Origin: a virus
Reading direction: 5' to 3' (one strand)
Virus record (IMG/VR): IMGVR_UViG_3300020439_001059
Span: 1-25,635 of that record
DNA: 25,635 bases
In this document: piece by piece, positions 6,194 through 20,644 of the stretch
Layout: every line of letters begins with the position of its first letter
How positions within the stretch are numbered: position 1 is the first letter of the stretch
Notes under the pieces: model-generated
Database searches by the model: none
What the model was told of the DNA's origin: nothing
Seen by the model: the letters and a program-made list of their open reading frames with translations, nothing else
Made by a program: the position numbers and the translations under genes

Positions 6194-6757
6194 TTAGACT
6201 GCGGAGACAGCTGCCCCACCGTTGTAAAGTTCTTCAAGAACCTTCAACACATTCTGGGGAGAAGACTTACCGTATGGGTCATCCTCACAGTTGTCACTAA
6301 ATCCTTCTTCTGGAAGAAAGACCTCAATGAATCCATCATTGATAATCATGGCATATCTCCATGACCTCAATCCAAATCCAATATTAGTCTTATCCACGAG
6401 CATACCCATCTTACGAGTAAACTCTCCTGCACCATCTGGAATTACTTTGACACATTCGATACCTTGGTCTTTTGCCCAACAGTTCATTACGAATGCATCA
6501 TTTACAGAGATACAAGATACACTATCGATACCATAGTCTGAGAACTTACCTTCTTTCATAAGTTTCTCAAAATCTGGTAATTGATAAGTGCTACAGGTTG
6601 GAGTGAAAGCGCCTGGGAGTGAGAATACTACATGGTATCCTTTACCCCATAAGTCAGTAGATTTCACATCTTCCCATCGAAATGGATTATCACCACCAAT
6701 ACTTTCATCTCGTACACGAGTTTTGAAAGTCACTTCTGGAATGTTTCCGTTATACAT
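6194..6757 (-). CDS. Peroxiredoxin (Prx5-like)
   Basis: This encodes 187 residues from the ATG at 6757, which has AGGTG seven bases upstream; a start at 6808 would lack a site and extend past the family N-terminus. FSLPGAFTPTC (45-55) is the Prx5-type active site, with C55 as the peroxidatic cysteine and T52/P53 positioned for it. VNDAFVMNCWAKD (85-97) and the conserved Arg in RSWRYAMII (132-139) also match. The enzyme reduces H2O2 or organic peroxides using host thioredoxin, glutaredoxin or glutathione. Extra cysteines at 82, 93, 102 and 157 could resolve the sulfenate. The gene overlaps the end of the small gene before it and belongs to the DUF932 early operon, so it would act early, probably against oxidative stress in the infected host. 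Confidence 0.93.
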   Translation of the reverse strand: MYNGNIPEVTFKTRVRDESIGGDNPFRWEDVKSTDLWGKGYHVVFSLPGAFTPTCSTYQLPDFEKLMKEGKFSDYGIDSVSCISVNDAFVMNCWAKDQGIECVKVIPDGAGEFTRKMGMLVDKTNIGFGLRSWRYAMIINDGFIEVFLPEEGFSDNCEDDPYGKSSPQNVLKVLEELYNGGAAVSAV

Positions 6758-6926
6758 CAATTTCACCTTTATACTCTTGTTGTCTTTGAGTCTGAAAGTA
6801 GTCATCATCTATGATGTGTGGTCTACCTTCATTCTCTCCAGACCAGTCTATATCGTCTTCTGGGGGTGTTTTACCCCCAGAGAACAAATTATATATCCAG
6901 TCTTTAAGCGGCGTTAGCAAACTCAA
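6750..6926 (-). CDS. Small unknown protein with overlapping ends
   Basis: This encodes 58 residues if it starts at the TTG at 6926 (MSLLTPLKDWIYNLF), which has GGAG seven bases upstream inside the DUF932 gene. The frame is open to a TTG at 6971, but that extension lacks a ribosome site. There is no in-frame ATG, so the start is uncertain. An amphipathic N-terminal helix is followed by an acidic, Pro/Asp-rich tail (DDIDWSGENEGRPH). Its end overlaps the peroxiredoxin start by 8 bases, which supports it as a real coupled gene. No function is recognised. A perfect hairpin (6859-6881) sits in its coding sequence. Confidence 0.65.
   Translation of the reverse strand: MSLLTPLKDWIYNLFSGGKTPPEDDIDWSGENEGRPHIIDDDYFQTQRQQEYKGEIDV
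6859..6881 (-). other. Perfect 9-bp hairpin inside a small gene
   Basis: TCTGGGGGT and ACCCCCAGA are exact complements around a 5-base loop, giving a GC-rich stem in an otherwise AT-rich region. It encodes Ser-Gly-Gly-Lys-Thr-Pro-Pro of the 58-residue protein. No U-tract follows on the minus strand, so it is not a normal terminator. It could attenuate, stabilise mRNA or act as a processing site between DUF932 and peroxiredoxin. Confidence 0.7.
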
Positions 6927-7950: not shown

Positions 7951-8379
7951 TTATTCTGTTCCTGCCAAAGGATTTGCTAGTGCTTCTTCTATCTGTTCTC
8001 TTATTGATTTACGGATGTCTATCAAGTCTCTTTGAGTCTGAGTTTCCAGTTCATATAGTCTCTTATTGCTTTCTCTTGTATCAGACTTCAAATCTCTTAA
8101 ATCATCAGATACGAAAGTTAATTCGTTATTTACTGTGTTCAGAGTGATTTCCAGTTCTTCCTTGATACTGGTCATTCTCTCGTCTTGTACTGCGAGTTGT
8201 TGCTCTATCTGAGACATATCTGGTGCTATATATGAATCGATTTTATCTTTCATATCCATGTAGTCACCCCAGAATAATGCTCCTGCCCAAACAATACCAG
8301 CGGCAGATGACAATGCAGTCAATACTGCTACCATCTTACCACCAGTAAACTTGATGCCACCTACTTCTATTTCTGCCAT
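7951..8379 (-). CDS. Membrane-anchored coiled-coil protein
   Basis: This encodes 142 residues. A short N-terminus (MAEIEVGGIKFTGGK) leads into one transmembrane segment at about 17-37. From about 55 to 135 a long coiled coil rich in Glu, Gln, Asp and Leu follows. No cleavage site is obvious, so the coiled coil is presumably anchored to the inner membrane. I remember close look-alikes in pelagiphage-type contigs without a function. The ATG overlaps the stop of the big acidic protein (TAATG), with AGGAG nine bases upstream. It is the last gene of the three-gene secreted/membrane cassette. A spanin-like or envelope-bridging role is possible but unproven. Confidence 0.85.
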   Translation of the reverse strand: MAEIEVGGIKFTGGKMVAVLTALSSAAGIVWAGALFWGDYMDMKDKIDSYIAPDMSQIEQQLAVQDERMTSIKEELEITLNTVNNELTFVSDDLRDLKSDTRESNKRLYELETQTQRDLIDIRKSIREQIEEALANPLAGTE

Positions 8380-10697
8380 TAGTATTGACTCCTAATTAAT
8401 TCACGCATCTTACCGTGCGATTCGTTTGTCATTCTGAAAAGACTCTGGGCATCATTCATCTTTGCAGACTTATATATGCTTTCTGTCTTGTACCAATCAG
8501 ACTCAAATGTATATGTGTCTGCGTAGTACATACTCAAATCGGTTGCTTTTGCCATGCCTTGAAGTATTGTTACCTGATTGGCAAATACCCCAGTCTGGTT
8601 CTTTTCTTTTCGTTCTGCTACTCTTTCAGCAAGAACTTCTGCTAATGTCTTTGGTCGATTGTCATCTGGTATGTCAATCTTTATCTCTGGTAAGTTGAAA
8701 CTCAATACTGGAATATCTACACCAGTATCAACACCACCAGTCAAATCGTCTTGTTGTTGTGCTTGTGATGACATTGCTTGTGAGTTAGATGTCTCTAGTT
8801 CACCTAATTGCACTGAAGCATTACCTGTAATTGAACCAAAGTTCTGTATGTCATCTAGGAATACATCACCTGTAGATGATGCAAAACCACCCCCAGAGAG
8901 TCCACCAGAGAATGCAGAGTTACTACCAGAGAATGCAGACCCACCTGAACTACCACCTGAACCACTTCCAGATGCTCCAATAGAATTACCAGATGCCATT
9001 GCACTATTGATAGCACTATTTACTGCCTTGGCAGTTTCTTTTCTACTCTCTTTCTTTGCTTTACTTTCTTTTCGTTCACCTCTTGCACGAACTGGAGCAG
9101 GTTCTATCTCATCAAGTTCTTCTGCTTCAACAATCAGTTCTTCTTCAAATATCTCTTCTTTTTCTTCTTCAATAAACTCTTCTTCAACTATTTCTTCTAT
9201 CTCTTCTAGAATCTCTTCTTCTAATAACAAGACTTCTACTACTTCTTCATCAACTTCTACTAAGAGTGGAGTCTCACGGAAAAAATCTTCGAACTCTTCT
9301 TCTACAAATATCTCTTCTGGTTCGATACCTTCTTCTTCTAGTATCTCAAAGAACTCCTCTTCAGATACCTCAATGAAGGCAACCTCTTCCAATTCAAACA
9401 AACTTAGGTCTTCTTGAAAGTATTCATCTCTTACTGGTTCAAAGGTAAATGACTCTTCTTCATATGGTTCAAAGAATACAATGTCTTCATACTCTTCTAC
9501 TGAACCATCCATAGGCATTTCTTCATACCCATAGAACTCTTCTTCTTCATATCCAAAGTATTCTTCCTCATCACCAAATGATACACCCTCTGGTATAAAT
9601 TCATCCAGTGGGTCAAATCCTTCGTCAAAGTTCCAGATATATCCATCACATTTTTCATCTGATTGTGGGTCAGACTCACATTTATCATCAAGGAATGCTA
9701 AGTCATATCCTTGACATGAAGTATCATATAATGGGTCTAAGGTACATTGTTGAGCAAGATATGCATCATCATATCCAGTACAGGTAGAATCATACAATGG
9801 GTCAATACCACATTGTTGAGCAAGATATGCTTCTGCGTATCCTGTACATTGAGAATCGTACAGTGAATCAATCGCACATTGTTGTGCGAGGTATGCATCT
9901 GCATAGCCTGGGCAGGATGCGTCATTCAGTGGGTTGCTACAATCGATTGTATCGACATCTCCTAGGAAAGCATACGAGTTGTTGCTCGTTTCATCCCACT
10001 GCCAGATATAATCCCCATCTCCTTTATTATGAAAAAAGAGATGCTCCACATGCCCTTCGGATAAATCCCCTGTTGCACCTGCCCAGATACTATGATTCTT
10101 TATTTCTATTTGGTCGTATGCAAATGTCCATCCATCTGGATTTATTTGTATTTCAAATGTATTCTTTGTATTGCTCTGTCCGTATTCTTTTACTTCATAC
10201 CATCCAAAGACTGCTTCATTATCATCTGCATAGTACCATGTAGAACCATTACCTTTTATAAGGTCAGTCCACAGGGGAGCAATCATATAGTCCAACATGT
10301 CGATTTGGTTCTGTAAGTTGTTCCAATATGATGGTGGATTCAAGGGGTCTTCATCTAATCTAAACCCTTCACAACATCCACCATATAATACATTCTGGTC
10401 ACTGAATGATATGAAACCATTCATATACATCTTACCTTGGGATACTTTATGACCATCAATCATCTCTGCTTCCCATGGCAGATTAAAATTTGCAAAGGAA
10501 TCATCACCAATATTAAACTGAGTTGCCCCAGTCATATTACGGATATCAATTAAATCTGTTGAACCACACGCAACACCACACTCTCCACTCGTGCCAGTCC
10601 ACGGAGAGTTTACCCCATTATAGGTTTGTGCGTTTGCTATATTAGAGAAGCATAAGCAGGAGAGCAGCCCCACCAATACCCAGAAGTGCTTTTTCAC
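8379..10697 (-). CDS. Large secreted modular protein with cysteine repeats and acidic region
   Basis: This encodes 772 residues from the GTG at 10697, picked because AAGGAG lies nine bases upstream and a clean signal peptide starts there (KKHFWVLVGLLSCLCF...ANA, cut near residue 23). Modules follow. A globular N-domain of about 25-240 is rich in Trp, Gly and Asp. Four 22-residue repeats at 262-349 share the pattern CxGYxxAYLAQQCxxDPLYD. A Glu-dominated region spans about 355-535, then a basic patch, a Ser/Gly-rich linker at about 565-620, and a conserved-looking C-domain at about 690-772. An ATG at 10724 is possible but would bury the signal peptide. It overlaps the N/T-rich gene by 56 bases. 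An exported or virion-surface protein is likely; the function is unknown. Confidence 0.85.
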   Translation of the reverse strand: MKKHFWVLVGLLSCLCFSNIANAQTYNGVNSPWTGTSGECGVACGSTDLIDIRNMTGATQFNIGDDSFANFNLPWEAEMIDGHKVSQGKMYMNGFISFSDQNVLYGGCCEGFRLDEDPLNPPSYWNNLQNQIDMLDYMIAPLWTDLIKGNGSTWYYADDNEAVFGWYEVKEYGQSNTKNTFEIQINPDGWTFAYDQIEIKNHSIWAGATGDLSEGHVEHLFFHNKGDGDYIWQWDETSNNSYAFLGDVDTIDCSNPLNDASCPGYADAYLAQQCAIDSLYDSQCTGYAEAYLAQQCGIDPLYDSTCTGYDDAYLAQQCTLDPLYDTSCQGYDLAFLDDKCESDPQSDEKCDGYIWNFDEGFDPLDEFIPEGVSFGDEEEYFGYEEEEFYGYEEMPMDGSVEEYEDIVFFEPYEEESFTFEPVRDEYFQEDLSLFELEEVAFIEVSEEEFFEILEEEGIEPEEIFVEEEFEDFFRETPLLVEVDEEVVEVLLLEEEILEEIEEIVEEEFIEEEKEEIFEEELIVEAEELDEIEPAPVRARGERKESKAKKESRKETAKAVNSAINSAMASGNSIGASGSGSGGSSGGSAFSGSNSAFSGGLSGGGFASSTGDVFLDDIQNFGSITGNASVQLGELETSNSQAMSSQAQQQDDLTGGVDTGVDIPVLSFNLPEIKIDIPDDNRPKTLAEVLAERVAERKEKNQTGVFANQVTILQGMAKATDLSMYYADTYTFESDWYKTESIYKSAKMNDAQSLFRMTNESHGKMRELIRSQY
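9651..9914 (-). repeat. Four tandem 66-bp coding repeats
   Basis: Four in-frame 22-residue units begin at Cys codons at 9914, 9848, 9782 and 9716 and end before the Cys at 9650. The first three are nearly identical at protein level (CxGYxxAYLAQQC); the fourth has drifted (AFLDDKC). Two cysteines per unit suggest disulfide-linked small modules in an exported protein. Confidence 0.85.
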
Positions 10698-11655
10698 CGT
10701 CTGAAACTCCTTGATTGATATCATCTTTGACCTTCACATCATCAAGAGCATTGTCAGGTATTAGTTGAGGGAACTTAGTCCATAGTTCTAATGCTTCGTC
10801 ACCTATCTTACCTTCGAAAGGACAAGGTGTTCCTGCCATCATCATTGCCTTCCATACTCTTTCATCTTGACACATAGTCGAGACAGCGGCGACTTTCATC
10901 CCCATATCGTAAAGAGTCTTTGACAGTTTTATCCTCTCACAGTTCATGTCTCTAACTGATTTACCACCAGATAAACCAAGTATCTGAGTCTGCACCGCAC
11001 CAGATATACCAGTCGTACAAAGGTCTTGTGAATAGGATGAACCTATACTAGGTGCAATTGCACTAGGAGGCGGAGACTTAATAGTGGTCTCGTTCTTATT
11101 GATGTTCTCATTCTTATTAGTATTATTCGTTGTAACTTCAGATTTCGATTCACTTTTAGATTCACTAGTAGATGTATTCACATTTGTATTAGTGTTATTA
11201 TTAGTATTATTCGAAGTTGAATTACTGTTCACATTAGAATTACTGGTAGAATTTACAGTAGTATTATTCGTGTTGTTATTCGTGTTCGTGTTATTCGAAG
11301 TCGAAGTCGAAGTGTTGGTATTCACATTCGTATTGTTGTTCGTATTATTACTAGTCGAAGTCGAGGTATTCGTATTCGTGTTAGTATTCACACTAGTATT
11401 ATTATTAGTGTTAGTATTAACATTTGTGTTGTTGTTTGTATTGGTATTCGTATTTGTATTTACATTAGTGTTGTTATTCGTGTTCGTATTAGTATTATTC
11501 GAAGTCACATTACTAGTTGTATTATTAGTTGACTCAGAAATACTGTAATCAGAATTTGACGCATCCTGAAACGAACCATCGACATCATCTGCTAATGCCA
11601 TAGTAGATGTAAATAAAAATAGACATGCCAAAGGTACTTTGTAAAGGGTCTTCAC
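10642..11655 (-). CDS. Secreted Asn/Thr-rich low-complexity protein with conserved C-domain
   Basis: This encodes 337 residues from a GTG start, with GGAG eight bases upstream. A signal peptide (KTLYKVPLACLFLFTSTMALA) is cut near residue 22. Residues about 42-190 are almost only Asn, Thr, Ser and Val (NTNTN, NNTNVNTN patterns). Residues 195-290 form a domain with four cysteines (DLCTTG, MNCERIKLS, TMCQDERVW, GTPCPFEG) that I have seen as a conserved unit in marine phages without a function. The C-terminus is a short hydrophobic segment (LLGIGGAALLLMLL). A TATAAATA box 54 bases upstream marks it as late. Plausible roles are an envelope anchor with a long flexible stalk or a virion fibre component; no function is assigned. 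Confidence 0.88.
   Translation of the reverse strand: MKTLYKVPLACLFLFTSTMALADDVDGSFQDASNSDYSISESTNNTTSNVTSNNTNTNTNNNTNVNTNTNTNTNNNTNVNTNTNNNTSVNTNTNTNTSTSTSNNTNNNTNVNTNTSTSTSNNTNTNNNTNNTTVNSTSNSNVNSNSTSNNTNNNTNTNVNTSTSESKSESKSEVTTNNTNKNENINKNETTIKSPPPSAIAPSIGSSYSQDLCTTGISGAVQTQILGLSGGKSVRDMNCERIKLSKTLYDMGMKVAAVSTMCQDERVWKAMMMAGTPCPFEGKIGDEALELWTKFPQLIPDNALDDVKVKDDINQGVSDGEKALLGIGGAALLLMLL
11085..11532 (-). repeat. Low-complexity Asn/Thr/Val coding tract
   Basis: About 450 bases are built from AAT/AAC and ACT/ACA codons with scattered GTG/GTT, giving imperfect tandem 6-12 base periods. Such a tract can slip during replication, so its length may vary between related phages. The opposite strand shows a long but spurious Val/Leu/Phe frame. 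Confidence 0.85.
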
Positions 11656-11728: not shown

Positions 11729-12082
11729 TTAAACTGGAAAAAAAGTAACACTTTCTCCGCATCCACACTGAGATGCTTCAAGGGGATTCACCCATTTTAG
11801 ATATTTGTTGAAACCGTCTACATGTAAATCAAGAGTTGCATTTTCGAAATACATATATTGGTCTTTAGGAATCATGAAGGTGATACTATCTGCTTGAACA
11901 GTTTCCCATCCATAAGCAGAGGTAACATCCGCACAATCGTCTACCGCACTAGGGGCAGACTTTTCTTTGAGGGTAATTTCATATTCGAATCCATGACAAC
12001 CACTTGCTTTAATACCAAGAAGTATTATCGCATCCTTTTCAACAGACTCAATATGTTCTATTGCTTCTTTTGTTACTATCAT
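11729..12082 (-). CDS. iscA: A-type iron-sulfur carrier (IscA/HesB-like)
   Basis: This encodes 117 residues. The three cysteines of A-type carriers are present: C29 in ASGCHGFEYE, and C106 and C108 in CGCGESVTF near the C-terminus. The family receives Fe-S clusters (or iron) from the IscU scaffold and passes them to target enzymes. The central part (about 45-60) carries a short insertion with an extra Cys compared with the bacterial form of about 107 residues. The ATG overlaps the TGA of iscU (ATGA), so scaffold and carrier are made together. No IscS, HscA or ferredoxin is visible here, so it would depend on the host desulfurase and chaperones. Confidence 0.92.
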   Translation of the reverse strand: MIVTKEAIEHIESVEKDAIILLGIKASGCHGFEYEITLKEKSAPSAVDDCADVTSAYGWETVQADSITFMIPKDQYMYFENATLDLHVDGFNKYLKWVNPLEASQCGCGESVTFFPV

Positions 12083-12498
12083 TGATTGTGCTTTCTATGT
12101 GCAGTCTTGGTTTCCCAATCCTCTATTGCTTTTCGAATCCCTTCTTCTGCTAGAACTGAGCAGTGTAATTTGATAGGTGGTAATTGAAGTGCTTCTGCAA
12201 TATCTTTATCTTTGATTTCTTTTGCTTGTTCAATTGTTTTACCTTTCAACATTTCAACAAACATTGTAGATGATGCAATAGCAGAACCACATCCATAAGT
12301 CTTGAATTTAACATCTAGTATTTCATCGGACATAGGGTCAAGTTTCAAATCTAGTTTCATTACATCCCCACATGCAGGCGCACCCACCATGCCAGTTGCG
12401 ACATTGGGGTCTTTAGGGTCAAACCTACCTACAGAGTGTTTCTCTGGATTCTTGAGTACAGATTCGAATCTATCTACTACTTCCTTACTATATGCCAT
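12079..12498 (-). CDS. iscU: Fe-S cluster scaffold IscU
   Basis: This encodes 139 residues, slightly longer than the bacterial protein because of a short insert before GMVGAPACGD. All ligands are intact: C43 and D45 (APACGD), C70 (YGCGSAIASS), H112 and C113 (KLHCS). LPPIK at 106-110 matches the LPPVK site bound by the HscA chaperone. IscU assembles [2Fe-2S]/[4Fe-4S] clusters with host IscS. The N-terminus MAYSKEVVD is as in cellular IscU, so the start is firm. That makes the TATAAATA box, only six bases before the ATG, notable: no ribosome site fits between them. It is likely a late auxiliary metabolic gene. Confidence 0.95.
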   Translation of the reverse strand: MAYSKEVVDRFESVLKNPEKHSVGRFDPKDPNVATGMVGAPACGDVMKLDLKLDPMSDEILDVKFKTYGCGSAIASSTMFVEMLKGKTIEQAKEIKDKDIAEALQLPPIKLHCSVLAEEGIRKAIEDWETKTAHRKHNQ

Positions 12499-12546: not shown

Positions 12547-13245
12547 CTATTTGTGGCGACCAACCCAATTGATTAAATGACCACCAATATCTAATGGATG
12601 CCATTTCGATAATTTAGGATTGTCATGGTGAGTATTATGGAATCCTTCACCAAAAGTTAATAATCCTAACCATGTATCTGAGTTAGGTTTTCGTCCTCTA
12701 TGTGAATATGAGAAGACAAATGAACCTATCAGTTTAGATAATCCTGTTGGTGCTAACCATGCATATACTAATGCGTATGGGTCAATCAACATCAGGAATA
12801 CTGCCCAACATGCCATGATTTGCCAGTAGGCAGAATGTTGTGCTTTGAATAAATCGTTTTTAAGCAAATCCCTCACATAATTAAGTTTGATATCTGTGAA
12901 CACTTGTAGGAAGTGTGCATAGAACCATCCTTTATAATATGGTGAGTGTGGGTCATCTGGTGTATCAGCATATCGATGATGCTCTCTATGATTAGCACAC
13001 CAGAGAAGAACTGGGCCGACCATGTGAATATGTCCAAAGAACAACATCACATATTCCAACCACTTCGGTGCATTAAAGGTCTTGTGGGCAAAGTACCTGT
13101 GGTATCCCATTGTCATACCAAGACAGTTGATACCAAAATACATGAATGCACATATCGCAATCTGCATCGGAGTTGCGAAGTACATAAGGGGAATGGATAG
13201 CATTGCTATCACTTGACCGATAAATAATTGAGTTGGTAATTGCAT
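12547..13245 (-). CDS. Membrane fatty-acid desaturase (acyl-CoA delta-9 type)
   Basis: This encodes 232 residues. The three histidine boxes of the di-iron membrane desaturases are complete: HRYFAH (49-54), HREHHRYAD (86-94) and HNTHHD (203-208). Hydrophobic pairs at about 8-45, 65-83 and 140-180 fit the four-helix topology. It is short for the family (usually 270-400) but lacks no box. It would insert a double bond into acyl chains in the host inner membrane, using O2 and electrons from a ferredoxin, cytochrome or similar donor that is not fused here. A TATAAATA box lies five bases before the ATG; an internal ATG at codon 15 is a weaker alternative. Expressed late, it may adjust membrane fluidity before lysis. 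Confidence 0.93.
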   Translation of the reverse strand: MQLPTQLFIGQVIAMLSIPLMYFATPMQIAICAFMYFGINCLGMTMGYHRYFAHKTFNAPKWLEYVMLFFGHIHMVGPVLLWCANHREHHRYADTPDDPHSPYYKGWFYAHFLQVFTDIKLNYVRDLLKNDLFKAQHSAYWQIMACWAVFLMLIDPYALVYAWLAPTGLSKLIGSFVFSYSHRGRKPNSDTWLGLLTFGEGFHNTHHDNPKLSKWHPLDIGGHLINWVGRHK

Positions 13246-16698: not shown

Positions 16699-17367
16699 TT
16701 ACTCTTCCAGAGCCTCACATACGGCAGGGAAATGTGTATTGATAATGTCCCAACATTTATCAGCAACAATCATATGTTCTTTCTGTGTGCCATTACCTCT
16801 TCGAAGTTGACAGTAATGAATCCAAGACCTAAGTGAACCTGCCATATAAAGGACAGACTCAGTATTACCTTCTGGTAAAACTGCTCTTGCTTGTTCTTTG
16901 GCAATACCGTTTTCTAATGCCCATCGATATGCTTTCTTTGCTTTAATAATAACATCCTCTTGATGCCTTCTCCACTGAGCATTCTTTTTAACATCTGATG
17001 GGTCATTCATATCCAAGGGAATAGAGTTCTGTCTATTCTTTTCGTCTTGTAATCGTGCGTCACGAATCTCTGTATTCTGTTGCTCTGCATATCTTTGAGA
17101 GAACTCTTGGAATGCAAAAGACCTATGACGAATAATCTGCCTTGCAATATCTCTTGTTGTTTTGATTTCAAGAGTCATATGTACCATTTCGAATGGTGAC
17201 CAATGATTCTCACGAATCAAATAACGAACAAGACCTGATGCGGTCTTGAGATTATTCTGATTACTAGGATTCGATACACGAGCAGTATATGCTACGAGTT
17301 GTTCTGCCGTTAGGCAATCTGTGATTGCGGTTGGTTTTGATAATGATATAAGGTTTACTTCACTCAA
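16699..17367 (-). CDS. thyX: FAD-dependent thymidylate synthase ThyX
   Basis: This encodes 222 residues. The ThyX signature RHRxxSxxxxSxR appears as RHRSFAFQEFSQR (80-92; the first Ser position is Phe/Ala-shifted, the second Ser is kept). HWSPFEMVHMT (55-65) and RSWIHYCQLRRGNGTQKEH (179-197) also match the dUMP and FAD sites. It makes dTMP from dUMP with methylene-tetrahydrofolate and NADPH, supplying phage DNA synthesis. The start is a TTG with GGAG eight bases upstream, overlapping the TGA of the preceding gene; no in-frame ATG lies near. Such a start would limit expression and couple it to upstream translation. Confidence 0.95.
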   Translation of the reverse strand: MSEVNLISLSKPTAITDCLTAEQLVAYTARVSNPSNQNNLKTASGLVRYLIRENHWSPFEMVHMTLEIKTTRDIARQIIRHRSFAFQEFSQRYAEQQNTEIRDARLQDEKNRQNSIPLDMNDPSDVKKNAQWRRHQEDVIIKAKKAYRWALENGIAKEQARAVLPEGNTESVLYMAGSLRSWIHYCQLRRGNGTQKEHMIVADKCWDIINTHFPAVCEALEE

Positions 17368-18074
17368 GTGAGATACTCCATTGCCTGATTTACATTCATT
17401 GTTTTGAAGTCGATACCAAAATTGATTCTCACTCCTAAATCACCATCTCTATGAACTGAGTGCCATATCTCATGATTAAAGAGTGTCCACACATTCGGTG
17501 TCAGACTTTTCTCCTCTGCAACTTTCAACTTTGCCATATCAGGTATGTAGTATTCTGGGTAGTGTTCAAATGGTGTAGTTTCATCATACCATTTGGTTAC
17601 CTCACCTTCACCTTCTAATAAACAAAAGAAAGATGCTAATCTTGCATGTCCACGATGTGGATGCAATAATTCACCACCGTCTTGAATCTGAACCACTGGT
17701 AAAGACTCATCCTTGGGAATACCAAATTCAAGATAAGTTTGTTCTTTGACATACTGACGCATATCTTCTGGTAAATCGTATTGGTCAATAATGATACGAT
17801 TCACCTCACCAAACTCTCTTAACATTTTTATCTGTCTGCGTTTCCACTCTCGTGCTTTCTCAGCACCAAACTGGTCAACGACTTTATCCCATTCGTTCCA
17901 TGGGGTTCTATCTACCGCATGAAAACTTCTGGGTCTAAAGGTTAAATGTGGATGCGTTCTTTCACCAGTCTCTTTATAAGTCTGTGCTACTTCTCTTGCC
18001 CATGTCAAGCATTGTGCTTTAACATCTGAAAGAAATCCATCATCAAAGTCTAACTCTTTATTGTATATCTTCAT
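17364..18074 (-). CDS. Cupin/2OG-oxygenase-like protein of unknown substrate
   Basis: This encodes 236 residues. The N-terminal half is helical and charged. From about 125 onward, a barrel-like part contains GGELLHPHRGHARLASFF (H138, H140, H143), a strand with EGEGEVTKWYDE, and LFNHEIWHSVHR (H201, H205, H208), followed by GVRINFGIDF with R216. Two His-rich strands plus a late Arg suit a non-heme iron cupin or 2OG oxygenase. No close family comes to mind. The ATG overlaps the cytochrome stop (ATGA) and its own end overlaps thyX. A redox or oxygenase role is inference from motif layout. Confidence 0.75.
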   Translation of the reverse strand: MKIYNKELDFDDGFLSDVKAQCLTWAREVAQTYKETGERTHPHLTFRPRSFHAVDRTPWNEWDKVVDQFGAEKAREWKRRQIKMLREFGEVNRIIIDQYDLPEDMRQYVKEQTYLEFGIPKDESLPVVQIQDGGELLHPHRGHARLASFFCLLEGEGEVTKWYDETTPFEHYPEYYIPDMAKLKVAEEKSLTPNVWTLFNHEIWHSVHRDGDLGVRINFGIDFKTMNVNQAMEYLT

Positions 18075-18514
18075 TTAAGTTCTGCTTCTACAAAATCTCC
18101 AAGAGTTTGTATATCTGCATCTGAGAGAACACTTGATTGTCCCCACATCACACCAGACATTGCTCCTCTTGTTTCTCCGTTTTTATATTGGGTAAGTGCT
18201 TCTACTATATAGTCGGAACTTCTACCTGCTAATGCAGGGAATGCTCCAATACCCTTACCATCGTTACCATGACAGGCTGCACATCCTGCCCATGCTCCTC
18301 TGATAGAACTGAACTCGTCAGCATTTGCTAATTCTGCTTTTGCTCTTTCTATCTCTACAACCGTGCCATACTTTGCTACATGTGCTTCATAGCATTCACC
18401 GTTGCAACTTTTTATATTACTATATCCCTTGACTTCTAAGTCAGGATAGATTACACCTGCAAAAAACCCTGTAAATGCAAGGCAACCTAACAATACCATT
18501 CCTAGTTCTTTCAT
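18071..18514 (-). CDS. Class I c-type cytochrome, membrane-anchored or secreted
   Basis: This encodes 147 residues. A hydrophobic N-terminus (about 6-23) is an uncleaved anchor or signal. The heme site is CAACH at 78-82 (C78, C81, H82), followed by GNDGKGIGAFPALAGR and a distal Met in GAMSGVMWGQSS (M119 or M123), then the C-terminal helix of small c-type cytochromes (c4/c5/caa3-like domain). Heme would be attached in the periplasm by the host Ccm system. It can carry one electron between respiratory complexes, or to an oxidase. Two extra cysteines (37, 41) in the N-terminal linker might form a disulfide. GGAG precedes the ATG. This is an unusual gene for a phage. Confidence 0.93.
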   Translation of the reverse strand: MKELGMVLLGCLAFTGFFAGVIYPDLEVKGYSNIKSCNGECYEAHVAKYGTVVEIERAKAELANADEFSSIRGAWAGCAACHGNDGKGIGAFPALAGRSSDYIVEALTQYKNGETRGAMSGVMWGQSSVLSDADIQTLGDFVEAELK

Positions 18515-18535: not shown

Positions 18536-18889
18536 TTAAGAATTCCTTTTTAACCGTTCTATTCTTACTCTAACATAGAGTAAATTTCTTAGTCCTGCGC
18601 CTGGCAAAAACATATGCAGTTTCTTTCTTCTACGAATTGCTATACCAACATACAACAATCCTAGAGGATACTGTTTGTATCCTTTTGCATTCCCTCTAAA
18701 CCAGAAGAGCATATTTCGATAGTCACCCCATCTACCAGTAATAGTAGTGAAGTCCCCAAACGAATTTATGAATCTTCCTTTGAAGGTATGGTCAGTTGAC
18801 AACTCACAAGTAAAATTGTTCTTGTCTCCTTCTACATATTCCTTCTTAGAAAATCCGTAATGTTTTAAGTAACTATCGAATAAAATCAT
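18536..18889 (-). CDS. Unknown basic protein
   Basis: This encodes 117 residues. It begins with MILFDSYLKHYGFSKKEYVEG and has a mixed beta-rich middle (FKGRFINSFGDFTTITGRWG), a Trp/Phe/Arg patch and a very basic C-terminus (RRRKKLHMF, RVRIERLKRN). A weakly hydrophobic stretch (YPLGLLYVGIAI) is too short to call a membrane span. The ATG overlaps the helicase stop (ATGA) without a clear ribosome site, so it is probably translated by coupling. No family is recognised; nucleic-acid binding is possible from charge alone. Confidence 0.75.
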   Translation of the reverse strand: MILFDSYLKHYGFSKKEYVEGDKNNFTCELSTDHTFKGRFINSFGDFTTITGRWGDYRNMLFWFRGNAKGYKQYPLGLLYVGIAIRRRKKLHMFLPGAGLRNLLYVRVRIERLKRNS

Positions 18890-20274
18890 TCTAACTTGAA
18901 GTTCTTGAACTTCTCAGCACTGATACTCTCACCTGAATGAGATTTATCAAACACTGGTCTGTCATCAACTACTCCTGTATCGTCTGGGTCATTGTCATCT
19001 GATAGACGCATCTTGCTCCTATCAATCTTCAATGTGAATCTATTGTATTTAGTAGGGTCGTTATATCTGTTTTTCAACTGCTTCACCATAATCTTACCTA
19101 GGTTGTTCAACTCATCATTAGAGATGAGAGCAAACATAAGGTCAGCAGTTGCAGGTAGACCAAACGATTCTGAAGTATCTTCAAGTCCTACATCATCATT
19201 AGAGTAACCACTACGAGTGGTCTGTGTTGCAGATACAATAGGAACATTGAACTCAACTGCGAGTCCACGAATCTCCTCTGCAATACTCTTGATGTAAGAA
19301 TAAGAGTTGATTGCACCACCCATACCTTTCATCCTAGAGGATGCACAGATATTAAGATAATCAATAAAGATAATCTCTGGTACAAAGTTCTTTTTAAGTT
19401 TGAGTTCGTTAAGTAATGCACGGAAGTGTGCAGTATTTGCTTGACCTGTAGGATACTCTTTGATAATAAGTTTACCTTCGGTCTTTGCTTTGAGTTGACT
19501 TACCTTGTCAGAGAACATAGTCTTAGATAGGTTCTCTAACTGGTCAATAGGTACATTCAATAAGTTAGCATCAATTCTTTCTGCGATTCTTTCTTCTGCC
19601 ATCTCCATAGTGATATACAATACATTGTATCCTTGAGACAATGCACCAGATGCTTGATGACACATAAACAATGACTTACCTACACCTGTACCTGCAAGTG
19701 CGATATTCAAAGTCTTGTTAGGTAATCCACCCTTGGTAATCTTGTTGAAGTAGTCTAGGTCAAACGGTAGTCTCTCTTCTTTCTCATGATAGAAATCATA
19801 TCGTTCATCAACATTCTCTAGATAGTCGTGACCAATGTTAGTGTCAAAGGTGACACCAAGTGCTTTGGATAGAACATCTGGAATAGCATTCTTTTGCATG
19901 GTCGCATGTTTACCATCAATGATAGTAATCGATTCCATCACTGCATTGTAAACTGCACGGTCTTGACACCATGCTTCTGTACGGTCAACTAACCAATCAA
20001 GGTCTTCTTTCTCAGGGGTAAAGATATTAGGTAGCAGTTCTGTCGCAAGACGATAGTTGTCTTCACCCAGACTGTGACCTTCATCCAACTCAATCTTGAA
20101 TGCTTCTAAGGTAGGTAGTTTATTGTATTTTGCGACAAACTTTGTAACTTCTTTGAATAACCCTTTGTATACTCCATCAAAATAATCAGGGTTTATAAAC
20201 GGAAGAACCTTCCGCATGTAAGGTTCATTCGTTAACAGATTCCTCAGTATCGTCTGTTCCAGATTTATATTCAT
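18886..20274 (-). CDS. 41: Replicative DNA helicase, T4 gp41-like (DnaB family)
   Basis: This encodes 462 residues from the ATG at 20274 (MNINLEQTIL), with GAGG seven bases upstream; the frame runs eight codons further up inside the preceding gene. An N-terminal helical domain (about 1-150) precedes the RecA-like motor: Walker A AGTGVGKS (194-201), LYITMEMAEERIAERI as the DnaB H1a/H2 region, Walker B IIFIDYLN (301-308, D306) and the late SATQTTR motif (H3). T4 gp41 is a hexameric 5'-3' helicase that works with the gp61 primase and gp59 loader. A possible internal promoter lies about 110 bases before the start. Its C-terminus is acidic and probably disordered. Confidence 0.95.
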   Translation of the reverse strand: MNINLEQTILRNLLTNEPYMRKVLPFINPDYFDGVYKGLFKEVTKFVAKYNKLPTLEAFKIELDEGHSLGEDNYRLATELLPNIFTPEKEDLDWLVDRTEAWCQDRAVYNAVMESITIIDGKHATMQKNAIPDVLSKALGVTFDTNIGHDYLENVDERYDFYHEKEERLPFDLDYFNKITKGGLPNKTLNIALAGTGVGKSLFMCHQASGALSQGYNVLYITMEMAEERIAERIDANLLNVPIDQLENLSKTMFSDKVSQLKAKTEGKLIIKEYPTGQANTAHFRALLNELKLKKNFVPEIIFIDYLNICASSRMKGMGGAINSYSYIKSIAEEIRGLAVEFNVPIVSATQTTRSGYSNDDVGLEDTSESFGLPATADLMFALISNDELNNLGKIMVKQLKNRYNDPTKYNRFTLKIDRSKMRLSDDNDPDDTGVVDDRPVFDKSHSGESISAEKFKNFKLE

Positions 20275-20644
20275 TCCAATCCTCTGCCAACTCTTCATTG
20301 TTGGTCATTATATTACCAGTCTCTTCATCCTTCATAACCATAGTCCCTTCAGACAAGGATGCTTCTATCACCGAATTGAGTATTCTACCACAGTAGGACT
20401 GCAAAGTCAAGTCCTTTTCTGTGAGGTCAGGGTCAGGAGAGGAAACGATGGTGAAGTTGAAAGAGAGGTATCCATCGTCATCATCCTTTCCTGACCCTTC
20501 AAACTTTACATTCCCAAAACGAATTACCGTTTCTGGGAACTCCTCATTGATACGAACATCCCATCCATCCTCACTTTCTGATTGTGGGATAATATCGTAA
20601 TGGATATGTTCTGATAATTTATTTTCTAAATCAATCAACTGCAT
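20225..20644 (-). CDS. Conserved unknown between uvsX and helicase
   Basis: This encodes 139 residues from the ATG at 20644 (MQLIDLENKL), the likely start; an ATG at 20659 has equally poor ribosome sites. The protein is acidic. It has DGWDVRINEEFPETVIRFG, then a Gly/Asp loop (GSGKDDDDGYLSF) and SSPDPDLTEKDL, giving a compact beta-rich fold, and an Asp/Glu-rich tail. I remember similar proteins beside uvsX in marine T4-like phages, without known activity. It overlaps uvsX (14 bases) and gp41 (50 bases). A recombination- or replication-accessory role is suggested only by position. Confidence 0.8.
   Translation of the reverse strand: MQLIDLENKLSEHIHYDIIPQSESEDGWDVRINEEFPETVIRFGNVKFEGSGKDDDDGYLSFNFTIVSSPDPDLTEKDLTLQSYCGRILNSVIEASLSEGTMVMKDEETGNIMTNNEELAEDWNEYKSGTDDTEESVNE
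20382..20410 (-). promoter_or_regulatory. Possible internal promoter before gp41
   Basis: TTGACT (20410-20405), 17 bases, TAGAAT (20387-20382), inside the gene before gp41. Each hexamer has one or two mismatches to consensus. It shares ACTTGACTTT with the candidate at 21745-21750. The chance of a random match is real because it is in coding sequence. Confidence 0.4.

Follow-up and report, generated by a model that had tools for sequence, protein, structure and literature searches.

The window analysed here, a 25,635-nucleotide stretch of viral DNA (positions 1 to 25,635 of IMG/VR record IMGVR_UViG_3300020439_001059), carries on its minus strand a 147-residue open reading frame at 18071-18514, which the initial annotation had described, with correct coordinates and without a strand, as a phage-encoded c-type cytochrome. 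The frame opens with an ATG preceded four nucleotides upstream by GGAG, the TGA that ends it overlaps the start codon of the following gene (ATGA), and the plus-strand frame over the same interval is full of stops. Read along the minus strand, a UvsX-like recombinase and a 144-aa ORF are followed by a DnaB-like replicative helicase of the T4 gp41 type (18886-20298; phrog_19, E=5e-126), a 117-aa ORF with neither a Pfam nor a PHROG match (18536-18889), the cytochrome, a 236-aa ORF whose start overlaps the cytochrome stop (17364-18074) and thyX, encoding a flavin-dependent thymidylate synthase (16699-17367; PF02511, E=8e-42), all on the minus strand. The 236-aa product resembles a 2OG oxygenase by eye and matched no Pfam or PHROG family. 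The cytochrome gene thus does lie between helicase and thyX, as had been noted, with the 117-aa and 236-aa ORFs intervening, and searches of Pfam and PHROG identify the genes around it as T4-like replication and nucleotide genes. By its helicase, the nearest named phage is Phage C48C1 (75% identity; Kyanoviridae, host not stated).

Elsewhere in the window, tandem Fe-S assembly genes, SufA/IscA-like (11729-12082) and IscU-like (12079-12498), adjoin a fatty-acid desaturase gene (12547-13245); an IscU-like gene is also found in C48C1 and in a 146-kb relative discussed below (contig L041). A peroxiredoxin-like protein (Redoxin, AhpC-TSA) is encoded at 6194-6808, with a counterpart annotated as peroxiredoxin in C48C1 and a similar ORF in the L041 phage. 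Two adjoining genes code for proteins that both resemble secreted or surface proteins, one of 781 residues that combines tandem repeats containing Cys with a long Glu-rich stretch (8379-10724), the other of 337 residues with a long Asn/Thr repeat (10642-11655).

The cytochrome assignment is supported by the HMM search and the structure prediction that had been proposed as checks. The window protein matches PF00034 (Cytochrom_C) with an E-value of 6.7e-7 and 31.0 bits against a cut-off of 21.3, and also exceeds the cut-off of Cytochrome_CBB3; PF00034 is likewise matched by 65/65 aligned relatives, which, with the at least 524 IMG/VR stretches described below, puts the resemblance well outside what chance would give. 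Sequence searches against solved structures lead to cytochromes c4, c552, c554 and c553. An AlphaFold2 model built on 65 alignment rows reaches a pLDDT of 85 overall, at least 90 in the heme domain and about 87 over residues 1-20, and consists of a single N-terminal helix (residues 2-26), two linker helices and an all-alpha cytochrome c fold. Foldseek matched this model to c554, c546/556, c552 and c553 (2zzs, 8yts, 1cno, 1c53) with TM scores of 0.75-0.84, the c554 of Vibrio parahaemolyticus giving 0.81 on the target, and retrieved no match to it from a viral structure library.

The hydrophobic N-terminal helix, the CAACH motif and the distal methionine that had first drawn attention to this frame are all present in it. 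Residues 2-26 (18437-18511, minus strand, as for the features below) form a hydrophobic stretch, modelled as one helix and predicted to be an uncleaved membrane anchor that would remain in the inner membrane. A CxxxCY motif follows at residues 37-42 (C37, C41, Y42; 18389-18406), where the two cysteines probably form a disulfide clip in the linker. The heme c attachment site CAACH occupies residues 78-82 (18269-18283), and MWGQ residues 123-126 (18137-18148); M123, which lines up with the methionines of the cytochrome c4 ligand region, is the probable sixth (distal) heme ligand. Scored on 65 aligned phage and cellular orthologues, C37, C41, Y42, C78, C81, H82, P93, L95, Y110, M123, W124 and Q126 are invariant. 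Judged from sequence and predicted fold, the gene product is a class I c-type cytochrome with a single heme site and an N-terminal membrane anchor. Other assignments were considered and rejected. CcoP, a subunit of cbb3 oxidase, has two heme c domains where this protein has one CxxCH, and TIGR00782 scores 21.6 bits against 180; cytochrome c4 is diheme, and the phage protein contains one heme domain. A CuA-like site at CNGECYEAH was dismissed because its His varies across the family.

Relatives are encoded by 355 IMG/VR stretches in one scan and by at least 524 in an alignment-based scan, whereas two different family members used as queries against 50,697 named phage records returned no match; PHROGs, INPHARED and BFVD contain no match to the cytochrome. 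The initial statement that phages rarely carry cytochrome c therefore applies to named isolates (0/50,697) and fails for uncultured marine T4-like phages, in which the search for the same gene in related genomes, suggested at the outset, recovered it from hundreds of contigs. Members were also collected through the pattern MW[GA]QA[GA]M alone, which avoids selection on the heme motif: CxxCH is kept in 73/73 family frames found in this way (71 CAACH and 2 CGACH), and CxxxCY in 67 of the 71 with enough N-terminus. Relatives devoid of CxxCH, named at the start as evidence against a cytochrome, were looked for and none occurs among these 73. Over 173 pairs, the median dN/dS is 0.23, which indicates that the family is under purifying selection.

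Such conservation, together with intact frames in hundreds of contigs, makes it barely conceivable that the gene is a functionless host gene copy, heme-less or in decay, a reading that would find some comfort in the low frequency of the gene in the window's own clade. Among loci of that clade (helicase identity of at least 76%) with enough sequence, only 2/46 carry the cytochrome: one belongs to the same species (L001), and the other has the gene at a different place (L078 and L248, the same contig). We therefore regard it as an accessory gene that has moved between T4-like lineages. Given its T4-like neighbours, its cellular orthologues and the dN/dS of 0.23, the gene has the hallmarks of an auxiliary metabolic gene, as it appears to be host-derived, intact and selected inside a phage genome.

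Around 84 cytochrome loci of relatives, gene clustering gives as the commonest order nrdA, an oxygenase-like gene, nrdB, cytochrome and glutaredoxin. Pfam confirms nrdA, nrdB and glutaredoxin, and returns no match for the oxygenase-like gene. Since ribonucleotide reductase and glutaredoxin are cytosolic, this association is best read as co-expression; delivery of electrons to ribonucleotide reductase was rejected, as the cytochrome would lie on the wrong side of the membrane. The same topological argument weighs on the suggestion, made in the initial annotation, that the cytochrome feeds the phage desaturase or oxygenases. Maturation and activity of c-type cytochromes take place outside the inner membrane, while desaturases rely on cytosolic ferredoxin or cytochrome b5-type donors and 2OG enzymes on 2-oxoglutarate. 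A desaturase gene and oxygenase-like ORFs are indeed present in the window, but these enzymes are expected to be cytosolic or to act at the inner face of the membrane, across from a periplasmic c-heme, and desaturase is not among the common neighbours in the 84 loci; donation of electrons to either type of enzyme is thus extremely unlikely.

What lies between nrdB and glutaredoxin varies: the cytochrome occupies this slot in 20/67 loci retrieved with a close NrdB query, and other small genes occupy it elsewhere. The slot seems to be a small accessory-gene hot spot, where short single-helix membrane proteins and a 208-aa QueC-like ORF are also found (L349, L361 and L362, for example). Small anchored envelope proteins of phages often mediate functions of the superinfection exclusion type, and the presence of other small membrane proteins in this slot could suggest an envelope role apart from electron transfer, with the heme domain as a scaffold. 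However, CxxCH and the distal Met are strictly kept under purifying selection, and an alternative oxidase (AOX) encoded next to the cytochrome in relatives points to redox work; we consider an envelope role very unlikely.

This AOX was recognised in several cytochrome loci of relatives (PF01786, E=6e-70, 235.6 bits vs 22.7), and its full-length copies display the diiron ligand motifs ENERMH, E[EQ]EAV and RADExHH. It lies near the cytochrome in 22/84 cytochrome loci, compared with 0/79 helicase-control loci; conversely, in the best 80 AOX loci, 26 have a cytochrome within about 6 kb. Several arrangements coexist: nrdB-cyt-aox-grx with a short overlap between cyt and aox, nrdB-cyt-grx-(gap)-aox, nrdB-(gap)-aox-cyt-grx, aox-cyt with no nrd genes within the flank, and overlapping cyt-aox ahead of distant nrd-like genes, the cytochrome of this last arrangement being only 48% identical to that of the window. 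That the two genes adjoin in either order speaks for a common role. Among dereplicated nrdB loci, AOX accompanies 5/34 with the cytochrome and 0/40 without it (Fisher p=0.017, uncorrected for phage phylogeny), and the association rests on few independent lineages. Within the 25.6-kb window there is no AOX gene. The window phage may nevertheless carry one outside the sequenced fragment, because C48C1 possesses an AOX (OQ984149.1:26255-26818, annotated 'hypothetical protein'), and AOX loci were likewise obtained from two contigs that encode relatives of the window's helicase (L230/L480 and L292/L491). Other copies lie at L025:6796-7371 and L004:6441-7004. One scan found 164 IMG/VR relatives of the phage AOX family; among 25 genomes checked, the nearest cellular AOX is 70% identical (G1446), and a phage AOX query returned no cyanophage PTOX at E<=1e-5.

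One carrier of the cytochrome is near-complete, the 146-kb phage of contig L041, whose tail sheath is 52% identical to that of pelagiphage HTVC008M. This T4-like marine phage also encodes a curlin-repeat protein and a CsgG-like secretion channel (L342:6426-7139 and L342:8948-9874), besides both cytochrome and AOX.

Cellular orthologues spanning the full length of the protein, with the anchor, CxGxCY and the heme domain, are found in Litoricolaceae, and stronger matches come from further genomes of the GTDB order to which this family belongs; these carriers are marine Pseudomonadales. In a sample of 398 Pseudomonadota genomes, a single Litoricolaceae genome matched along the full length, and in 385 Alphaproteobacteria genomes no full-length match was found, the sole match covering the heme domain. 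We had considered Litoricolaceae as the only cellular source, and abandoned this idea after the order-level search gave better full-length matches in other Pseudomonadales. In the tree, a branch supported at 97/94 and present in all 200 bootstrap trees examined sets the phage sequences apart, an alignment of 147 columns and long branches limiting how the phage clade is placed relative to cellular groups. Taken together, sequence comparisons make a marine gammaproteobacterial origin of the phage gene likely. Metagenome-assembled genomes assigned to Synechococcus CPC35, Sphingobacteriales and Planctomycetaceae (L082-L085) were rejected as hosts, as their cytochrome genes have phage neighbours; these are most likely misbinned phage contigs. 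The same gammaproteobacteria also contain a second cytochrome c (L590:5999-6397, genome G1431), with a c5-like N-terminus (CVAGEDCGG) and a phage-like MWGQA heme domain.

In cells, the orthologues are lone genes beside unrelated functions, with no oxidase operon around them and, in the genomes looked at, no AOX beside them, so that the redox partner is not readable from context. In lithotrophic hosts, OM252/Litoricolaceae for instance, the cytochrome could take up electrons from a host dehydrogenase in the periplasm, such as one that oxidises sulfide or thiosulfate. Orthologues do occur in Litoricolaceae, sulfur oxidation has been predicted for OM252 members (PMC8269220), c4- and c552-like domains are part of flavocytochrome c and TsdBA structures, and phages with soxD are known (PMC8190135). 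Yet neither the phage nor the cellular loci showed a recognisable sulfur-oxidation gene close to the cytochrome, and the orthologues extend to other Pseudomonadales, which leaves this dehydrogenase partner quite unlikely.

We favour, as the rather probable reading, a membrane-tethered periplasmic carrier matured by the host Ccm system, which would link cytochrome bc1 to a host oxidase during phage DNA synthesis, with an additional AOX branch in relatives. The N-terminus would stay in the inner membrane, host Ccm would attach heme at CAACH in the periplasm, and H82 and M123 would bind the heme iron. The tethered heme domain could then accept electrons from the cytochrome bc1 complex of the host and pass them to the host's cytochrome c oxidase. 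With its gene placed among those for replication and dNTP synthesis, such a carrier would sustain respiration and ATP supply during copying of the phage DNA. In many of the relatives, the phage AOX would open a second, bc1-independent route from ubiquinol to oxygen; as this route bypasses the bc1-cytochrome c branch, the two proteins need not act in one line. The scarcity of the gene in the window's own clade (2/46 loci) and the lack of an AOX in the window also speak against this reading. The initial annotation had proposed electron flow to an oxidase as one role of the protein, and this remains the best reading: a respiratory role agrees with the AOX neighbour in relatives, but the cellular context, deprived of an oxidase operon, does not single out a redox partner.

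The same pair could instead relieve over-reduction or oxidative stress in the dying cell, through overflow or superoxide oxidation, rather than contribute to ATP yield. The AOX of relatives is an energy-wasting overflow branch, and the peroxiredoxin-like gene of the window and the glutaredoxin of relatives would fit such a function. However, a monoheme cytochrome c is not known to have detoxification as a dedicated function unless paired with a peroxidase, and no such partner was recognised in the vicinity; we hold stress relief to be unlikely.

These observations suggest that the phages prop up or re-route the host respiratory chain while copying their DNA. As a tentative proposal, which we judge to fall just short of an even chance, uncultured marine T4-like phages that infect heterotrophic or mixotrophic gammaproteobacteria would carry, beside their ribonucleotide reductase genes, a rewiring module made of an anchored cytochrome c and an AOX, the counterpart of cyanophage plastocyanin and PTOX. 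Phage electron-transport genes have been well documented for cyanophages and photosynthesis, and searches of the open-licence literature found neither a stand-alone respiratory cytochrome c described from a phage nor a pairing of one with AOX. With the cytochrome absent from PHROGs, INPHARED and BFVD, and AOX hidden under an uninformative label in the named phage, current annotation misses both. If the proposal is correct, phages of non-photosynthetic ocean bacteria also manage host respiration during infection, which would bear on estimates of how infected cells use oxygen and channel carbon. The cytochrome and AOX provide a defined, testable gene pair.

Compared with known systems, the phage protein belongs with monoheme class I cytochromes such as c554 of V. 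parahaemolyticus (2zzs), c552 of Pseudomonas nautica (1cno) and c546/556 of Thioalkalivibrio paradoxus (8yts). With these and with c4 domains it shares a heme domain of about 75 residues, CxxCH, P.L.G, a conserved Y and a distal Met followed by an LSD-type helix; it differs from them by its anchor, apparently uncleaved, its CxxxCY linker and MWxQ at the Met ligand. Its predicted layout, a probably uncleaved anchor, a linker and a class I heme domain, resembles that of cytochrome cy/c552 (CycM) of Rhodobacter and Paracoccus. Cytochrome cy carries electrons from bc1 to the oxidase. The heme-domain subfamily is nonetheless distinct, the phage protein being nearest to the c4/c554/c552/c553 type, and the R. 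capsulatus supercomplex with cy (6xkw) appeared in the fold search only at E=2.9. The overall design is shared with the anchored cytochrome of marine Pseudomonadales (LSUCC0096, HIMB30 and others), which is 33-44% identical to the window protein and has the same anchor, CxGxCY, linker, heme domain and M[WFY]..A. Phage sequences nevertheless form a branch of their own, and the cellular copies have no nrd or AOX neighbour.

Plastocyanin and ferredoxin are known electron-transport genes of cyanophages. Another such gene, PTOX, is widespread in cyanomyoviruses (PMC7472177). Like these phage-carried electron carriers and quinol oxidase, which are thought to sustain electron flow during infection, the anchored cytochrome and AOX could serve the infected cell; unlike them, tied as they are to photosynthesis in cyanobacteria, the carrier described here is a cytochrome c of respiratory type. 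Another phage auxiliary gene with a cytochrome c motif is soxD (Kieft et al., 2021; PMC8190135). SoxD is a sulfane dehydrogenase subunit, some phage copies of which have no heme motif (PMC8190135), whereas the phage cytochrome is a stand-alone anchored carrier in which the heme motif is always kept.
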